From Candidatus Bathyarchaeota archaeon (GTDB taxonomy: Archaea > Thermoproteota > Bathyarchaeia > Bathyarchaeales > Bathycorpusculaceae), in NCBI GenBank assembly GCA_026015145.1, contig JAOZGY010000015.1, positions 1-35,246 on the forward strand: a stretch of 35,246 nt of DNA, given 5' to 3'. The first letter of the stretch is position 1, and each line of letters opens with the position of its first letter. The notes under the pieces were generated by a model that was not told where the DNA came from, did not search any database, and worked only from the letters and a program-made list of their open reading frames with translations. A program made the position numbers and the translations under genes. Below are positions 2,917-29,590 of this stretch, in pieces.

Positions 2917-3048
2917 AAATTCATACCTCCCATAAACCGATTCATCTAAAAACTATTAAATATTATGTAATACCCAATCAAGAAAAAAAACATTATTATA
3001 ATATACTACAATATTATAAGATACTTTATTTCTGATCTTCTTGTTCTT

Positions 3049-3351
3049 TCTCGTTTTTTATTATTTTTAGGGTTCTTATTGCTGGTATTATTAGGGCTAT
3101 CGCGGCGGTTGCCATTCGCTCACCCGCAAATCCAATAGTTGGTCGGCATCATTTTATCGGAGATCAACCATAATTTAAGACGGGTGGACAGTTCCAACTT
3201 CTAAAAGGTGTATTTACAAGAAAAAAGCACGCATAAAAATTTTAAATTAATTCTTAAATCACCCTACTGCTTACTATTACTAGGAGGAACCCTCTGTGAA
3301 AACAGGAAAAAACCTGGATAAAGAGTTCCCAAGCGTCATGGATAGCGCGTA
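3049..3351. repeat. Duplicated tail + promoter + leader block, copy A
   Basis: The block starts with the dispersed tail repeat (ggttcttattgctggtatta, then agggctatcgcgg), continues with tagttggtcggcat, a gagatcaac...taatttaag stretch, and the promoter-like aaaattttaaattaattctt. It ends inside the CBS gene after the codons for MKTGKNLDKEFPSVMD. The matching block at about 9130-9451 precedes an unrelated gene. The minus strand of the first third still reads as PTIGFAGERMATAAIALII then PAIRTL, so this part derives from the membrane-protein tail. By eye most positions match between the two blocks, with small indels in the central part. Confidence 0.85.
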
Positions 3352-4132
3352 CAAACAGTACAAACACAATCTTTCGCGCTACAAACAAGCAAATGAAATT
3401 ATGACAAGAACCGTTTTTACAATAAACCCTGAAGCTTCAATGTATGAAGCCGCCAAAATAATGGGTGAAAAACACATTGGAAGCTTAATTGTAACAAAAT
3501 ATGACACCCCTGTAGGCATAGTAACTGAGAGAGACTTACTCACAAAAGTTTTGGCATTAGAAAAAAACCTAAAAACAGAAAAAATCGAAAAGGTGATGTC
3601 TTATCCTTTAGTTTCAATTGGCTTAACCACTAAAATAAAAGAGGCTGCAAAAACCATGATCAACCAGAAAGGCAGACTCGCTGTTTTTGATGCCGGAAAG
3701 CTAGTAGGCATAGTAACAGCCTCAGATCTCATTAGAAGCCTACCAGAAATTCATGAAACAGAGGCAAAAGTGGACGATTTCATGACCAAAAAAGTCATAA
3801 CCACGGACGAAAAAACATCCATAAACACGGTAGCTAAAATTATGGGCAAAAAGCGAATAGGCAGCGTCATAATAACCAAGAAAGGAAAACCCATAGGAAT
3901 TTTTACAGAACGAGACCTACTCACCACCATCCTTTCAAAAGACAAACCACTAACAACCCAAGTAGGCAAAAAAGCTTCTTCACCACTCATAACCCAATCC
4001 AGCGGAATAAGTATTCATAAAGCCGCCATCACAATGACCATCAAGCATATCAGAAGATTACCAATAGTCAAAAGAGAACAAATCATAGGGATTATCACAG
4101 CTAGAGATCTTGTCGAGGCTTACGCAAAATAA
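3296..4132 (+). CDS. Four-CBS-domain protein (two Bateman modules)
   Basis: A 278-residue soluble protein made of four CBS motifs. They begin near IMTRTVFTINPEASMYEAA (36), VMSYPLVSIGLTTKIKEAA (101), FMTKKVITTDEKTSINTVA (162) and ASSPLITQSSGISIHKAA (227). Each ends in a G-I-[VIF]-T-x-[RS]-D-L signature. CBS pairs bind adenine nucleotides and act as energy sensors, and stand-alone four-CBS proteins are common in archaea with unknown partners. The start is GTG, eight bases after a strong AGGAGG. The first 17 residues (MKTGKNLDKEFPSVMDS) are not part of any CBS fold and are almost the same as the N-terminus of the cytidylyltransferase fusion at 9396, as is the upstream DNA. Confidence 0.9.
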   Translation: MKTGKNLDKEFPSVMDSAYKQYKHNLSRYKQANEIMTRTVFTINPEASMYEAAKIMGEKHIGSLIVTKYDTPVGIVTERDLLTKVLALEKNLKTEKIEKVMSYPLVSIGLTTKIKEAAKTMINQKGRLAVFDAGKLVGIVTASDLIRSLPEIHETEAKVDDFMTKKVITTDEKTSINTVAKIMGKKRIGSVIITKKGKPIGIFTERDLLTTILSKDKPLTTQVGKKASSPLITQSSGISIHKAAITMTIKHIRRLPIVKREQIIGIITARDLVEAYAK

Positions 4133-4194
4133 CATCCCCTTTTTTTAGATCACATGCTATTTTGAATAAAAACTAGATTCTCACTATTCTGCTT

Positions 4195-4260
4195 CTTCTT
4201 GTTCTATTTCGATTTTTATTATTTTTAGTGTTCTTATTGCTGGTATTATTAGGGCTATTA
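4195..4260 (-). repeat. Dispersed membrane-helix tail repeat, copy 3
   Basis: The plus strand reads gttctatttcgatttttatt, then atttttagtgttcttattgc and tggtattattagggctatta. The minus strand encodes ALIIPAIRTL-like residues. It lies between the CBS gene and the converging 70-codon ORF, and its last bases supply that ORF's stop codon. Confidence 0.85.
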
Positions 4261-4470
4261 TCTTTGTTGTTTGCGTTTTTTAGTTTTTTTGAGATCTGAA
4301 AAATCCGTTAGACTCTGAACTGGATAATCTTCTATTCCATAATCTTTTCTTATCTTATTTTTATAACTTTTTTCCAAGATTTTTGCATCTGTTTCTTTTG
4401 CGCTTAACTCTACACTATTTTCCAATATCTTAATTGTTCTACGCAGCCGACGTTGACTTCTAGTAACCAT
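4258..4470 (-). CDS. Small basic protein of unknown function (70 aa)
   Basis: I do not recognise a family. The product is highly charged and basic (MVTRSQRRLRRTIKILENSV at the start, KKTKKRKQQR at the end) and probably helical. No cysteines or membrane segments are present. The stop codon lies at the edge of a dispersed tail repeat, so the original C-terminus may have been altered when the repeat arrived. It is plausible as a real small protein, possibly nucleic-acid binding, but coding status rests only on the open frame and an ATG. Confidence 0.4.
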   Translation of the reverse strand: MVTRSQRRLRRTIKILENSVELSAKETDAKILEKSYKNKIRKDYGIEDYPVQSLTDFSDLKKTKKRKQQR

Positions 4471-4666: not shown

Positions 4667-4704
4667 CTCTTCTTGTATTATTTCGATTTTTATTATTTTT
4701 AGGA
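4667..4704 (-). repeat. Dispersed tail repeat, copy 4 (truncated)
   Basis: Only the first half is present: cttgtattatttcgattttt then attatttttagga, after which homology stops at ttccggttcc. It lies between two small minus-strand ORFs. Confidence 0.75.
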
Positions 4705-4726
4705 TTCCGGTTCCTTACATCTATCT

Positions 4727-6079: not shown

Positions 6080-6421
6080 CCTTTTCCTTAAATAAATTCA
6101 CACTATTCATTATCTATGATGATCTTATTGAAGTACCAGATATCTCTCTTTTCTTTCTCCTATCAAATCTGCAAATTATTCAAATAATATTATTCTTTTG
6201 GATATATATCCTGAAAATAACCTATTTAAAAAGAAATTTAGATCAATAAATCTAGTCAAGCCAACAACATCTCCCGCTCATTCTTCCCTTTTTTATTCTT
6301 CTGTTTCTATTTCGATTTTTATCGAAAAATTCTGTTTCTATTTGGTTTTTTAATATCTCGCCTGTTCTTATTATTAACGATAGATATGGTTTAGTATTAG
6401 GAAAAAAGGAAAAAAATACCA
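6080..6421. repeat. Intergenic gap with degenerate tail repeat (about 6295-6372)
   Basis: The gap between two divergent surface genes holds a decayed copy of the dispersed repeat. The string ctgtttctatttcgattttt appears, and ctgtttctatttgg recurs about 35 bases later, followed by ctgttcttattatt. The internal partial duplication suggests decay or slippage. Upstream sequence is AT-rich with no gene. Confidence 0.55.
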
Positions 6422-7630: not shown

Positions 7631-7675
7631 AGAAAAGGATTAAGTGTAGTTTCTAATTGCCAAAATAATTTTCTA

Positions 7676-7745
7676 ATCTTCTTGTATTGTCTCGATTTTT
7701 ATTTTTTTTAGGGTTTTTATTGCTGGTATTATTAGAGCTATTAGC
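7676..7745 (-). repeat. Dispersed membrane-helix tail repeat, copy 6
   Basis: The plus strand reads cttgtattgtctcgattttt, then attttttttagggtttttat and tgctggtattattagagcta. It lies about 50 bases after the metalloprotein stop codon, between converging genes. The T-rich run could also help end plus-strand transcription. Confidence 0.85.
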
Positions 7746-7881
7746 TTGGTTATTTTTGGATTTTTTTCACTCGATTAGTTATCCAAATAAATCCCACAAA
7801 TCCTAAAGTTTATCTCATCTCATTAACAGACAAAAATATGATCTAAGCTGACAGAAAAGCTAAAAGCTAATACTTGAATTG

Positions 7882-8964: not shown

Positions 8965-9129
8965 TTCTCCCTGATTTTTTAAAATAAGTTATTAAATCTT
9001 CAAGTAATTCTGAAAATTTTTACTTATAAAACCCAAAGGAATTATCTTATAGAATTATTTTACATACAGAAAAAAGCAAATCTCCCAAAAACGACTTAAA
9101 CATCTGCAACCTAATTTCTATCAAAAATC

Positions 9130-9451
9130 TGATCTTTTTTATATCTCGATTTTTATTATTTGTAGGGTTCTTATTGCTGGTATTATTAGGGCTATCGCGG
9201 CGGTTGCCATTCGCGTGCCCGCTATTCCCATAGTTGGTCGGCATAATATTTTATCAGAGATCAACATTAATTTAAGACTGGTGGACCGTACTAGCTTCTA
9301 TAAGTTTTGTTTACTATAGGAAAAAAGTACACAGAAAAATTTTAAATTAATTCTTAAATCGCTCCAATACCTACTATTAATGTAAGGAACTCTCTATGGA
9401 AACAGGAAAAAACCTGATTAATGAGTTCCCAAGCGTCATGGATAACGTGAG
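9130..9451. repeat. Duplicated tail + promoter + leader block, copy B
   Basis: Counterpart of 3049-3351. It has the tail repeat (9140-9210), then tagttggtcggcat, taatttaag, aaaattttaaattaattctt, and the codons for METGKNLINEFPSVMD. The minus strand reads PTMGIAGTRMATAAIALII in the same frame as copy A, with mostly conservative or silent changes, as expected for a coding ancestor. The 65-residue minus ORF in the track here is only a frame-shifted reading of this repeat. Confidence 0.85.
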
Positions 9452-10799
9452 CGAAGTTAAGCAAGCCCTTGTTTTGGCAGCTGGAAAAGGAAGCCGGCTG
9501 AGCGAATGCGCAAAGCAAAAATTAATTCATTATATTGCAGGTGTACCCCTACTAGGGAGAATCCTTCAAGGTCTTAAAGAAGCTGGAATAGAAAGCGTTC
9601 ATATAGTTATCGGATATGAAGGAGATGATATACGCCAAGAGATTGGCAAGAATTACTTGGGACTCGATGTCAGTTACGTAATGGCCCAAAACTGGGAAAA
9701 AGGAAACCTACACTCATTTCTGGCTGCTAAAGGGACTTTCAAAGAGGATTTCATTCTTTGTATGGGTGATCACATTTTTGACAGCCAAATCGTGACAAGC
9801 TTCATCAATGTCGATCATAATAGTTCTGTTGTTTTGGCTATTGACACGATTGGGTACGCCTTCGATGACACAAAAGTGCTAGAGCATGAGGGAATGATCC
9901 TTGATATTGGCAAGGACATAAATCCTTCAAACTGCGTGGAAACTGGATTTTTTTTCTGTTCGCCAAAAATATTCTCATATGCAGAAATGGCTGTGAACCA
10001 AGGGAAATCAGAACTTGCTGACTGCATTCGAATCGCTGCCCAAAACGGAGATGCACAAGTGCTCGATGTAAGTGGACACTATTGGGTAGATGTAGACAAC
10101 AAAAAAGACATTGAACGTGCAAAAAGAGTTCTGGCTAAATACTCACAAAAGAAGCGAGGCGCATCCGACTTTGTAGCCCATTACTTTAATAGACCGATAG
10201 AAAACGCAATTATCCATCGCCTATCGGATTCTAGGGTAACACCCAACCAGATTACTATCTTAGTAAATGTGTTAGCCTATCTCGTAACGGCTTTATTCCT
10301 TTTTGGTCACTTGTTTATAGGATCAGTCTTAACTTTTGTGGTGGGGCTTATAGACGGGTTGGATGGCAAATTAGCTAGAATACGAGGACACTCAACAAAA
10401 CTTGGGCGTATGGAACATTTGTTTGATCTGTTATTTGAATTTTCATGGTTAATAGCTATTGCCATGTTTTTAAGCCAAAGCAAAGGTTCGTTGCCACTCT
10501 TACTTGTTGCCTCTTCCATCACATTTATCGCATTCTATCGGTTTTGCTACGATCAATTCAGCAGAACAACGGGCATTAGTCTAGACGTGTACGGGCGGTT
10601 TGAACGTGCTTTCAGGAGGATTGCTGGTAGAAGAAACATATACAACGTTTATATTCTGATAGGAGTTATCTTGGGAACGCCACTTTACTCATTAATTGTA
10701 ATTCTATTTCACTCAGCTTTAACAGCAGTGGTATATGCTTCTAGAGTAGCTATACACCTGCATAGGATTGATAAAAAAGAACAGGTAAATCTTTTGTAA
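9396..10799 (+). CDS. Bifunctional inositol-1-P cytidylyltransferase / CDP-alcohol phosphatidyltransferase
   Basis: A 467-residue fusion. Residues about 23-248 are a nucleotidyltransferase with LVLAAGKGSRL, NWEKGN, MGDH, IGKDI, ETGFF and WVDVD, matching the cytidylyltransferase half of IPCT-DIPPS enzymes. Residues about 255-455 are a membrane CDP-alcohol phosphatidyltransferase with DGLDGKLAR then a spaced G-R-M-E-H-L-F-D. Known relatives make CDP-inositol and join it to inositol-1-phosphate, giving di-myo-inositol phosphate or a related phosphodiester; whether the acceptor here is an inositol or a lipid is not visible. In the D-x2-D-G-x2-A-R-x8-G-x3-D-x3-D signature, the third Asp is Glu. 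The usual PK of the nucleotide loop reads QK. The first 17 residues are a foreign leader shared with the CBS protein at 3296; natural homologues begin near KQALVLAAG. Confidence 0.8.
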   Translation: METGKNLINEFPSVMDNVSEVKQALVLAAGKGSRLSECAKQKLIHYIAGVPLLGRILQGLKEAGIESVHIVIGYEGDDIRQEIGKNYLGLDVSYVMAQNWEKGNLHSFLAAKGTFKEDFILCMGDHIFDSQIVTSFINVDHNSSVVLAIDTIGYAFDDTKVLEHEGMILDIGKDINPSNCVETGFFFCSPKIFSYAEMAVNQGKSELADCIRIAAQNGDAQVLDVSGHYWVDVDNKKDIERAKRVLAKYSQKKRGASDFVAHYFNRPIENAIIHRLSDSRVTPNQITILVNVLAYLVTALFLFGHLFIGSVLTFVVGLIDGLDGKLARIRGHSTKLGRMEHLFDLLFEFSWLIAIAMFLSQSKGSLPLLLVASSITFIAFYRFCYDQFSRTTGISLDVYGRFERAFRRIAGRRNIYNVYILIGVILGTPLYSLIVILFHSALTAVVYASRVAIHLHRIDKKEQVNLL

Positions 10800-10829
10800 A
10801 AGTTTTGCGAGCGCTTTGTGTGCATTTCA

Positions 10830-11618
10830 TTAAGCTCTTTTTGCTTTAAAAGCGTCCCAGCAGTTGACTATCTTTTGCATGAGTTCAGGTTGAATGTCGT
10901 AGAAGTCGTTTATCCTTCCTTCTGGAAAGAACATTCTAATCATAAACTCTCTTCCAAGCCTATCCATCTTGGATAAGCTCAGCTCCGGCTTTTTTATTAA
11001 TTTGTCTTTGTATGTCTCGTAGAATCTTTCAATAGTAGGTTTGATGCATTCATCCATTAATTCTTGGTTGGTTATGTTATCTAGATGGGGGAAGCCCATC
11101 GGAAAGGAGTAGTCGATTACGTCTTTTCTTCCTGAATAGTTGAGGATGATGCTGTCCAAAACTTTCCGGTTTGGGATCTCCGTGATATTGTAGGTTGGAG
11201 CATAGATTTTCGTGTAGTTGATGGTTATCTCCCGAACCTCTCCCTCAATATCCCCGATTTTCACATAATCTTTCACCATGAAGGGTCTTGATATCATGAG
11301 ATAAAGTCCAGCTAAAAAATTACCTACGGTCTGAGTGGAAGCAAAACCAATCGCTGCTCCAGTTAAAGCGGAGATTCCGATAAACCAATCAGTACCCACA
11401 CCAAATAGGCTTAGGATAACGATCACACCAACAGAAAAGACGATGATTCTAGAGATTAAGTTGAGGATATTAGCAACATGAGGATCTAGTTTTAATCTCT
11501 TTGCGTATCTTGATATTGCTCTCCGAATCAACCGGTCAACGACAAGAATTATGACAACAATTAACAAAGCTGTTCCCGCAAGCAGAAGGTTCTCCATGGA
11601 TAGAAGATTCGGAAACAT
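10830..11618 (-). CDS. mscS: MscS-family mechanosensitive ion channel
   Basis: A 262-residue small-conductance channel. Helices span about 9-28 and 52-75. The pore helix carries ALTGAAIGFASTQTVGNFLA (84-103), the Gly/Ala-rich packing segment of MscS, followed by GLYLMISRPFMVKDYVKIGD, which enters the beta domain. IYAPTYNITEIPNRKVLDSI is the usual end of that domain, and the C-terminal alpha/beta part follows. It releases solutes on hypo-osmotic shock. Its position converging on the inositol-solute type enzyme is suggestive of an osmotic theme, but there is no shared operon. Length is normal for compact archaeal MscS proteins. Confidence 0.92.
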   Translation of the reverse strand: MFPNLLSMENLLLAGTALLIVVIILVVDRLIRRAISRYAKRLKLDPHVANILNLISRIIVFSVGVIVILSLFGVGTDWFIGISALTGAAIGFASTQTVGNFLAGLYLMISRPFMVKDYVKIGDIEGEVREITINYTKIYAPTYNITEIPNRKVLDSIILNYSGRKDVIDYSFPMGFPHLDNITNQELMDECIKPTIERFYETYKDKLIKKPELSLSKMDRLGREFMIRMFFPEGRINDFYDIQPELMQKIVNCWDAFKAKRA

Positions 11619-11774
11619 TTCTTGCCAAACACCTTGCAGGAACAGAAAGCGACTTTGTTAAAAAAACTTTCGATGACATGCGTTCCCCAAGAAACCCTAT
11701 TGATGTCCTATTGAATTGAAACTAATGAAGTTACCACGCATGTGCGTCCAGTGTGTGTGCATAATATCTTTTAA
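11619..11774. other. Intergenic region, no gene seen
   Basis: Short gap upstream of the MscS gene and downstream of the nucleoside phosphorylase remnant. On the plus strand, aattgaaactaatgaag near 11715 is not convincingly part of any feature. Nothing else is recognised. Confidence 0.4.
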
Positions 11775-15963: not shown

Positions 15964-15989
15964 TAGCAACTATTTGTTCAAGTTTTGTA

Positions 15990-16105
15990 ATTATTTGGAT
16001 TTTTATTATTTCTAAGGTTTTTATTGCTGGTATTATTAGGGCTATCGCGGCGGTTTTTTGGTTTTTTAGCTCAATCTTCTCTTATTATTTCGATTTTTAT
16101 TATCT
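15990..16105 (-). repeat. Dispersed membrane-helix tail repeat, copy 8, next to the parent gene's own tail
   Basis: Copy 8 (ttatttggatttttattatt, tctaaggtttttattgctgg, tattattagggctatcgcgg) sits directly downstream of the intact family member, whose own tail (16079-16145) is a second instance in tandem. The spacer cggttttttggttttttagc followed by tcaatcttct is shared with copy 1 at 1340-1370. Confidence 0.85.
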
Positions 16106-16607
16106 CAAGGGTTCTTATTGCCGGGATTATCAGAGCTATTAGCGCAACTACCATAAGGGCTAGGGCGGATGCGCTGGTTGGATTGTAGGAGCTGCCCCAG
16201 TTGAAGTTGGTGGGGAGTCCATATTCTATTAGGCGGTTTTGCAGTAGGGTGTCTATTTGTCTTAGACTATAGATGCTTGTGGCCAGGTAGGCTATGGAGA
16301 GGGCTGGGAGCATAAAACCCAGGATCTTTGATGTCCTGCTGGGCTTTTGACTGTACTGATAATGAGGAATAATCGAGAGAGCAGAGAGCGCTGTGCTGCC
16401 AAAGAGAAAGCCCCAAAGCAAACCAGTATAATACCAGTAATCCGATGCCCAATCAAAACTAAACACTAAACCAAAATCGTATAGGTCCCCATTCACAAAA
16501 AGATCTAAGCGCCACAACAAAACAAAAACAATAGCATCCAAAATGATTATGAACAACAAAACCTGAACCACCCGATCCACTAAAAGCCTCTTAAAATCCA
16601 CCCGCAC
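16071..16607 (-). CDS. Four-helix membrane protein, parent of the dispersed tail repeats
   Basis: A 178-residue integral membrane protein of unknown function. Helix 1 is VVQVLLFIIILDAIVFVLLW, helix 2 runs through YYTGLLWGFLFGSTALSALS, helix 3 is ILGFMLPALSIAYLATSIYS, and helix 4 is ALALMVVALIALIIPAIRTL followed by the charged end EIIKIEIIRED. Loops between helices 1 and 2 and between 3 and 4 hold similar aromatic segments (LYDFGLVFSFDWASDY and LIEYGLPTNFNWGSSY), so the protein looks like an internal duplication of a two-helix hairpin. Its 3' end, 5' end and middle occur as separate fragments elsewhere in the window. I know no experimentally described member. Confidence 0.75.
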   Translation of the reverse strand: MRVDFKRLLVDRVVQVLLFIIILDAIVFVLLWRLDLFVNGDLYDFGLVFSFDWASDYWYYTGLLWGFLFGSTALSALSIIPHYQYSQKPSRTSKILGFMLPALSIAYLATSIYSLRQIDTLLQNRLIEYGLPTNFNWGSSYNPTSASALALMVVALIALIIPAIRTLEIIKIEIIRED

Positions 16608-17167: not shown

Positions 17168-17563
17168 ATTGTAACAATAGCTCTATATTTATTAGAGTTG
17201 CCTTACTTGCACAGCCCCTGAAAATTCTATTTGAAAACACATTCACCAAGCGCGTGCACGTGTATTAAGAAATCTCCTGTCTCAGGCTGAGAACCATGGA
17301 GAAAATGTTAACTTTAAGTACTAATTTAGCACAATAGAACGCCATTGATGATTTCATAGATAACAAACTGTAACAAATAATGGTGGCATTAATGAAATCG
17401 TTTAGGTTTTCATTTTTTACTTCTTGTTCTATCTCGATTTTTATTATTTGTAGGGTTCTTATTACCGTACCACTATCGTACCACTCAAACGCAAAGAAAG
17501 CAATGCTCAATAAAGAAGAAAAAATGGGTGCTAAATAAGCGACCTGAACTTTTTTGTTGCGAA
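17168..17563. repeat. Intergenic gap with tail repeat (17418-17466)
   Basis: A copy of the dispersed repeat (ttcttgttctatctcgattt, then ttattatttgtagggttctt) is cut at attacc. Immediately after the cut lies a short direct repeat, cgtaccactatcgtaccact. The 81-codon minus ORF reported here merely reads through the repeat (GTVIRTLQIIKIEI) and is not a credible gene. Confidence 0.75.
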
Positions 17564-19058: not shown

Positions 19059-19152
19059 CAACAAAAAAAAACAACAAACCATACAAAAAAATCACAAAAA
19101 ATAGAACCTGAACAATCCGATCCCTTAGCAAATCCTTAAAATCCACAAGCAT
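19045..19152 (-). pseudogene. N-terminal fragment of the four-helix membrane protein family
   Basis: The minus strand reads MLVDFKDLLRDRIVQVLFFV then IFLYGLLFFFV and a stop after 35 codons. This matches MRVDFKRLLVDRVVQVLLFI of the intact protein at 16071-16607. The upstream flank also matches that gene's flank (cctcaacaacaa, aaataattaaaa). Only helix 1 remains, and its end overlaps TetR operator 2, so a remnant of one gene has become part of another gene's control region. Confidence 0.8.
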
Positions 19153-19314
19153 ACCTCAACAACAATTAATGTTACAAACGATTACACAGCCATAAATAAT
19201 TAAAAACATTTTCTAATCAACCTATCAAAAGCGTAAGGGAAAAAATTGTTTATTGCCTATAATTAGAAACGCCAAAATGCAACAAGACAAATTGCTTTTT
19301 CTCTTCAAGCAAGC

Positions 19315-24348: not shown

Positions 24349-24525
24349 TTAGTTCATTAGCGATAGGGCTGAGGTGCTTGTTGGATTATAGGAGCTGCCC
24401 CAGTCAAAGCTTGGGGGTAGCCCATATTCTATTAGGCGGTTTTGCAGTATAGAATCTATTTGTCTTAGACTCCAAATGCTAGCACCCTCATAGACTATGG
24501 CGAGGGCTGATGCAATAAGGAAATC
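24349..24525 (-). pseudogene. C-terminal-half fragment of the four-helix membrane protein family
   Basis: The minus strand reads SIWSLRQIDSILQNRLIEYG then LPPSFDWGSSYNPTSTSALS and LMN, stop. This matches SIYSLRQIDTLLQNRLIEYG and NWGSSYNPTSASALALMV of the intact protein at 16071-16607. It is cut just before helix 4, so it lacks exactly the segment that is scattered as tail repeats. It has no start and abuts, or overlaps slightly, the stop of the DUF998 gene. Confidence 0.85.
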
Positions 24526-25534: not shown

Positions 25535-26482
25535 ATGTCTTTTGATTTTAAAAAAGCCCTTCCAATAATTCTTATCACATGGATTCTTGGTCTTGCAACA
25601 ACAATAGCCCTTGTTTACGTTTCGCCAAGTATTTTTCCTCCACTTGGAGCTGCAAACATTGAAGATGAAGCTATAACATCTACAAAGATTGCAGATGAGG
25701 CAATTATTGCAGTTAAATTAGATGATGGATCTGTCACTTCAGCGAAAATAGTTGATGGAACAATTACAGCACAAGATCTAATGGATGGATCAATCTTATC
25801 CATCAAAATTGCAGATGGCGCAATCAATAGCAATAAAATTGCCAATAATTCCATAACTGCTGATAAGGTTGCAGATGGAGCAATTGTCACAGTTAAACTA
25901 TCGGATAATGTGGTTACTTCAGCAAAAATAGTTGATGGAACGATAATGGCAGAAGATATCAGCGATGGATCAATAGTAAGTGTAAAAGTAGCCAACGGCG
26001 CAATCACAACCAACAAAATTGCTGATAACGCAATAACAACACCCAAAATTAATGACAACGCTGTAACTAACAGCAAATTAGCCCCAAACGCAATCCCTTA
26101 CAGATCAATGTACAACACAACCCTGGTATCAACAACATCAACGAGTTTTGTAGACATACCTGAAACTTCCTTAGAAATAACATTGGCAAGGAGAAGCAAT
26201 TTGATAATAATGTTTAATGCTGAAGCTTGGGTGGATGGAGCTGGTGACTCACTTTTTGTTCGAGCTTTAGTTGATTCTACTGTTGCTAATCCTAATGGCG
26301 GATCGCAAATATTATTTACAACAGCTGGTGAATCGCAGCATGGATCGTATGCTGTAAATTTCTACTTGGAAAATGTTGAGGCGGGAACTTACACTGTGAA
26401 GATTCAGTGGAGTGAAATGCTGGGGGCGAATAATGCACATATGGCTGATAGAACGCTAAATGTAATAGCTTTACCTGCATGA
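25535..26482 (+). CDS. Membrane-anchored surface stalk of tandem decapeptide repeats with globular head
   Basis: A 315-residue protein. It has an N-terminal membrane anchor (PIILITWILGLATTIALVYV), then residues about 46-188 as about 14 uninterrupted ten-residue repeats with consensus D-G-A-I-T-S-x-K-I-A, then a C-terminal beta-rich head of about 120 residues (RSNLIIMFNAEAWV, YAVNFYLENVEAGTYTVKIQ). The repeats themselves fall into two copies of a six-unit, 60-residue super-repeat (VTSAKIVDGTI recurs 60 residues apart). Similar A-I-T-x-x-K-I-A-D-G arrays occur in phage tail fibres and archaeal surface proteins and are expected to fold as a beta-solenoid or trimeric fibre. Strong AGGAGG precedes the ATG. 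Adhesion or appendage role is inferred. Confidence 0.8.
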   Translation: MSFDFKKALPIILITWILGLATTIALVYVSPSIFPPLGAANIEDEAITSTKIADEAIIAVKLDDGSVTSAKIVDGTITAQDLMDGSILSIKIADGAINSNKIANNSITADKVADGAIVTVKLSDNVVTSAKIVDGTIMAEDISDGSIVSVKVANGAITTNKIADNAITTPKINDNAVTNSKLAPNAIPYRSMYNTTLVSTTSTSFVDIPETSLEITLARRSNLIIMFNAEAWVDGAGDSLFVRALVDSTVANPNGGSQILFTTAGESQHGSYAVNFYLENVEAGTYTVKIQWSEMLGANNAHMADRTLNVIALPA

Positions 26483-29411: not shown

Positions 29412-29476
29412 ACCTTGGAATTCATTCGTTTTTTCCTTACTTTAGCGGTTCTTTGCACATTGGGTACTGTTTGATT

Positions 29477-29527
29477 GTTATTACTTCCAGGGTTCTTATT
29501 GCTGGTATTATTAAGGCTATTAGCTTG
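29477..29527 (-). repeat. Dispersed membrane-helix tail repeat, most distal copy
   Basis: The plus strand reads ttacttccagggttcttatt then gctggtattattaaggctat. The minus strand gives LIALIIPAIRTLEVI. It lies between the DUF2905 gene and the methyltransferase gene. The long minus ORF covering it (29437-29904) is antisense to the methyltransferase and not a gene. Confidence 0.8.
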
Positions 29528-29590
29528 TGGTTGCTATTCGATTGTGTTACTTTATAAAGGAAGCTGAGATAATAGCAAAAAGGATCAAAG

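Follow-up and report, generated by a model that had tools for sequence, protein, structure and literature searches.

Probable capture of a neighbouring gene's promoter and start by a nucleotidyltransferase fusion gene in a bathyarchaeal contig

It is highly probable that a gene encoding a nucleotidyltransferase/CDP-alcohol-phosphotransferase fusion (NT) in a Candidatus Bathyarchaeota archaeon captured the promoter and start of a gene for a four-CBS-domain protein (CBS) by local ectopic duplication, adding 14 codons before its own start. The 5' region of NT would in this way have been replaced with a copy of the 5' end of its neighbour, 6 kb away. The window analysed here is an entire contig (C112; JAOZGY010000015.1, 35,246 nucleotides) from a genome of 1.53 Mb in 139 contigs. 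It was compared with three congeners, including G002 and G003, which share the promoter, and in a wider survey with 163 genomes of the organism's own order (designated Gnnn).

The duplicated block and its junction

Positions 3031-3347 (block A, forward strand) and 9128-9447 (block B) form a direct duplication with 84% identity over the 322 columns of the best local alignment; the alignment scores 384, against 32 for the best of 300 shuffles, and this is the sole such pair genome-wide. A sequence-only reading had proposed a duplicated promoter and leader ahead of two unrelated genes, moved together as an expression signal with its first codons, and both parts of that proposal are borne out: promoter, ribosome-binding region and first codons travelled as one block. 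The edges are placed here at about 3031 / 9128 on the left, rather than 3049 / 9130, and at 3347 / 9447 on the right. From left to right the block starts with the degraded 3' end of a membrane-protein gene on the minus strand, followed by a spacer, a promoter rich in A+T, a Shine-Dalgarno (SD) region and the first codons; identity between the copies is 94% in the tail, 81% in the spacer, 97% in the promoter, 69% in the 5'UTR/SD and 90% in the leader. Block A ends with the first 17 CBS codons, and the donated part of block B (9128 to 9437, forward strand) ends with the 14 added codons.

The leader peptides, V/M-KTGKNLDKEFPSVMD in CBS and METGKNLINEFPSVMD in NT, have 16 positions in common, of which 13 are identical when both start codons are counted as Met. 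Only the first 14 codons are taken to be donor-derived, since codons 15-16 (ATG GAT) are also the native NT start. Past the leader the proteins are unrelated, with four CBS domains in one and NTP_transferase plus CDP-OH_P_transf in the other (Pfam). A genome search for further genes with this leader, using a degenerate DNA pattern, found exactly two places, the CBS and NT genes. The same pattern across the 163 genomes of the order returned six CBS orthologues, the NT gene of the window and one more match, in G054, which was judged a chance occurrence, as it lies outside the set of CBS orthologues identified. Rfam gave no match in the window at the gathering threshold when a structured RNA leader was looked for. 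Phage records contained no match to the duplicated block and viral contigs no relative of the membrane-protein gene whose tail it includes; a viral origin is therefore without support.

The junction lies at the ATGGAT of positions 9438-9443 (forward strand), the equivalent of CBS codons 15-16, which are likewise ATG GAT and in frame (3338). DNA homology between the NT genes of the window and of G041 begins exactly at base 9438 (residues 15-16), and the sequence upstream of it resembles the native upstream regions of G041 and G060 no better than shuffles do. Together these observations argue that NT was fused at its own start, with the ATGGAT common to both genes linking its start codon to an in-frame Met in the leader of CBS. 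Identity of the ATG is partly forced by a fusion at a start codon; the GAT is additional identity. The natural start of NT is accordingly this ATGGAT (MDNVSEVKQALVLAAG) and not KQALVLAAG, as had been suggested from the window alone. Several NT orthologues begin MDEVNSEAIKALVLAAG, MDGVNSEAIKALVLAAG, MHEVNHSPEALVLAAG or MYGVNYSPEALVLAAG, aligning with window residue 15, so that starts are of the type MDEV / MDGV / MHEV / MYGV and the native pattern is MDxV...ALVLAAG.

Donor and recipient genes

The CBS gene (3296 to 4132, forward strand; four Pfam CBS domains) has a GTG start and the N-terminus KTGKNLDKEFPSVMDSAYKQY, which is conserved among its orthologues. These occur in G002 (83%), G003 (79%), G016 and G084 (71%) and G048/G057 (about 60%), and clearly related N-termini among them read LKTGKNLDNEFPSVMDGAYKQY, LEKGKSLDKEFPSIMDSAYKQY, MRTPKDLKKEFPSVLDSAYMQY and MRVLKDLKTEFPSIVDRAYREY. 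An FPS-type motif stands in the same N-terminal place in 15 of the 29 related CBS genes of the order, and a diverged form (e.g., RKLPSVVDIAYEQY) in about seven further ones. Window DNA is continuous with the orthologous CBS locus from 3221 in G002 and from 3240 in G003. Because the orthologue N-termini are related and the DNA is continuous in this way, leader and promoter are native to the CBS gene, their original owner. The leader has been kept in CBS orthologues and therefore does something in the CBS protein, and the earlier suggestion that neither fold needs it must be corrected: in the CBS protein it forms the native, conserved N-terminus, and NT alone received it. The structure model of the CBS protein (mean pLDDT 51) is too weak to interpret.

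The NT gene runs from 9396 to 10799 (forward strand; Pfam, NCBIfam) with its native start at 9438, and is 80% identical to that of G041. Its 14 donor codons, METGKNLINEFPSV (9396 to 9437, forward strand), have no counterpart in the NT orthologues whose starts can be read, which come from four families of the order. That NT captured the CBS 5' end follows from three observations taken together: the leader is native to CBS, no NT orthologue carries it, and NT homology starts at 9438.

Strong NT matches are spread patchily over 20 of the 163 genomes of the order, the window's own included, with no orthologue in any of the three congeners; the closest named relatives are Candidatus Bathyarchaeota / Bathyarchaeia assemblies. 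The NT tree intermixes families f1, f6 and f7, with f1 requiring five changes, a pattern that fits horizontal transfer or repeated loss. The gene thus looks horizontally acquired, or acquired late or patchily retained in the lineage. In G001 the orthologous mechanosensitive-channel gene is flanked by a different gene, without NT, and gene order is too scrambled for this genome to define the insertion point. A dN/dS of 0.18 against G041 indicates that the body of NT is intact and under purifying selection.

The closest PDB entry for the NT protein is 4mnd, a bifunctional CTP:inositol-1-phosphate cytidylyltransferase / DIPP synthase (IPCT/DIPPS; NF041135) with the same two-domain order across the protein. 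NT differs from it in an altered CDP-alcohol motif, and with 195.4 bits against a cutoff of 580 bits it is not an IPCT/DIPPS equivalog. The usual CDP-alcohol phosphotransferase motif includes G-x3-D-x3-D; residues 320-344 of NT (10353-10427) read DGLDGKLAR-x8-G-x2-E-x3-D, a form invariant in six aligned NT orthologues. The NT structure model (mean pLDDT 49, leader residues about 29) is too weak to interpret. From the structure alignment the relatives L105 and L107 were excluded for internal stops, and L110 was also omitted, needlessly.

Captured promoter, translation start and leader

A putative TATA box, TTCTTAAAT, precedes the CBS gene at 3251 to 3259 (forward strand) and is copied ahead of NT at 9351 to 9359 (forward strand), its first base in each case 45 nt before the start codon, that of the leader in NT. 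G002 and G003 have the identical box that is seen in blocks A and B, and its distance to the start is 44-46 nt throughout. Because both sequence and 45-nt spacing have been retained, the captured promoter likely drives NT transcription; a sigma-70 promoter scan is uninformative for archaeal DNA.

For translation, an SD of the AAGGA type stands at normal spacing before the start at 9396, which is an ATG vs the GTG of the donor, the SD being weaker in block B (TAAGGAAC vs AGGAGGAAC), and no SD is seen ahead of 9438 (TTAATGAGTTCCCAAGCGTC). Translation therefore probably begins mostly at 9396, so that the protein would carry the 14 borrowed residues. An alternative, less probable though worth keeping in view, is that only the promoter was gained, in which case the native ATG at 9438 would serve as the NT start and the leader codons would be 5'UTR. 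That ATG is intact, and the leader codons of block B have changed only non-silently; the position of the SD, retained at 9396 together with an ATG where the donor has GTG, speaks for the upstream start.

If the residues are made, their role becomes the question. One reading is that expression signal and peptide were shuffled as a functional module, with the leader serving for targeting, docking or stability and the two proteins co-localised or co-regulated through it. Conservation of the leader among CBS orthologues and preservation of the reading frame in NT lend this something, but we regard it as unlikely. NT received only 14-16 of the ~30 residues conserved at the CBS N-terminus, the SAYKQYKxxLSRY segment being left behind, and no other tagged gene turned up in the genome or in the 163 genomes of the order. 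Each of the four countable leader codon differences between the copies after the start replaces an amino acid, with no silent change among them; K2E and D8I are two of these, on the NT copy. Measured against G002, private changes number 10 in the NT copy and three in the CBS copy. The sites are few, and the nonsilent changes fit an unconstrained by-product weakly better than a tag. Co-localisation in particular has no support: the donated residues differ between the copies only through amino-acid-changing differences. We infer that NT tolerates the 14 additional residues as a by-product of promoter capture and that they are not a functional tag; co-regulation of CBS and NT is plausible.

Route of the event and relation to known systems

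Two routes can be envisioned for the capture of the CBS promoter and start by NT. The CBS 5' end may have been copied to a place in front of NT, the copied piece being bounded on the left by a tail repeat and on the right by ATGGAT. Otherwise the CBS gene may have been tandem-duplicated as a unit, followed by deletion between two ATGGAT sites, which would take out the body of the second CBS copy and, with it, the promoter native to NT. Copying and duplication-plus-deletion yield an identical product, and comparison of internal duplicates found no second CBS copy, remnant or intact intermediate. Gene-tail repeats would supply the left-hand homology in either case, and local unequal recombination or template switching would be the likeliest source of the duplication; the copied TATA box and SD would now drive NT expression. 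All 44 internal duplicate pairs in the region are direct and none is inverted. Tail and spacer, which make up the leftmost 190 nt of the block, are lineage-specific, being absent from three of three congeners. A quartet of A, B, G002 and G003 over 127 columns divides its informative sites 2:3:2, favouring neither a split of A and B before the G000-G002 divergence nor one after it; in age the duplication falls near that divergence.

Both blocks begin on the left with a repeat that is the 3' tail of a full-length orphan four-transmembrane (4-TM) gene at 16071 to 16607 (minus strand; nhmmer/tblastn-type matches), and the left part of block A, 3031 to 3115 (minus strand), is a degraded copy of its last 25 or so codons. 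About eleven fragments of this gene, in a single orientation, occur on this contig; about ten intergenic ones, with none elsewhere in the genome, hold the last roughly 25 codons plus the stop and share an end at the stop codon. Tail fragments in the duplicate search, one orientation throughout, lie at 1256-1388, 3031-3115, 4194-4272, 4668-4707, 6296-6322, 7670-7765, 9128-9213, 15985-16069, 17412-17467 and 29464-29540. Internal and 5' fragments of the same gene occur at 19059-19219 and 24355-24509 in direct orientation. The neighbouring gene units 1458-2987, 3221-4155 and 10826-11620 match G001 C386, G002 C41 and G001 C4, respectively; similarity extends only some tens of bases beyond the genes, stopping near tail repeats for the first two, and gene order around the units is strongly scrambled. 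A further internal direct repeat of ~174 nt (74%) lies at 25685-26037, within the repetitive coding region 25535-26482. It can be imagined that the tail repeats are recombination anchors that have repeatedly moved 5' modules and that the leader of CBS works as a tag that can be passed between genes, in which event the NT enzyme would have been put under the control of the CBS sensor and into its company; we think this very improbable, and no evidence was seen of a role for the tail repeat in what the leader block does.

The fragmented assembly (139 contigs) might raise the thought of a chimeric contig, but this is scarcely credible for two copies on one contig that differ at 16% of positions and by several indels, as mis-assembly would repeat sequence and not diverge it. 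A leader ancestral to both gene types by common descent, the condition under which the sequence-only reading was to be given up, is practically discounted, since the survey of orthologues in the examined genomes found it on CBS genes only; wherever the start of an NT orthologue could be read, in four families, it was missing.

The capture of the CBS promoter by NT is a clear natural case of an already known process, promoter capture, here with a duplicated segment from an intact donor, a differing native 5' region in orthologues and a short homology at the start. As cited in PMC11111574 (Li and Bock 2019, Blount et al. 2012, Anderson and Roth 1978), promoter capture can switch on silent genes and genes gained by horizontal transfer, by deletion or tandem duplication, possibly at microhomology. 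The likeness to those accounts is a neighbour's promoter placed before another coding region, in a recipient that looks horizontally acquired. The window case differs in being natural, old (84% identity) and from an uncultured archaeon, and in carrying 14 donor codons as a translational fusion; activation of the recipient is putative here. Gene fusions born of deletion likewise set the start of one ORF in frame with another coding region (PMC12803068); here, however, the donor is intact 6 kb away, the recipient keeps its whole native ORF and a prior duplication is needed.

The familiar examples of promoter capture come from laboratory evolution, and the window offers a natural archaeal case in which donor, recipient, direction and junction are resolved to base level. 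It shows that a patchily distributed gene can gain a host promoter, with N-terminal residues as a side effect, and that N-terminal peptides common to unrelated proteins need not be functional tags.
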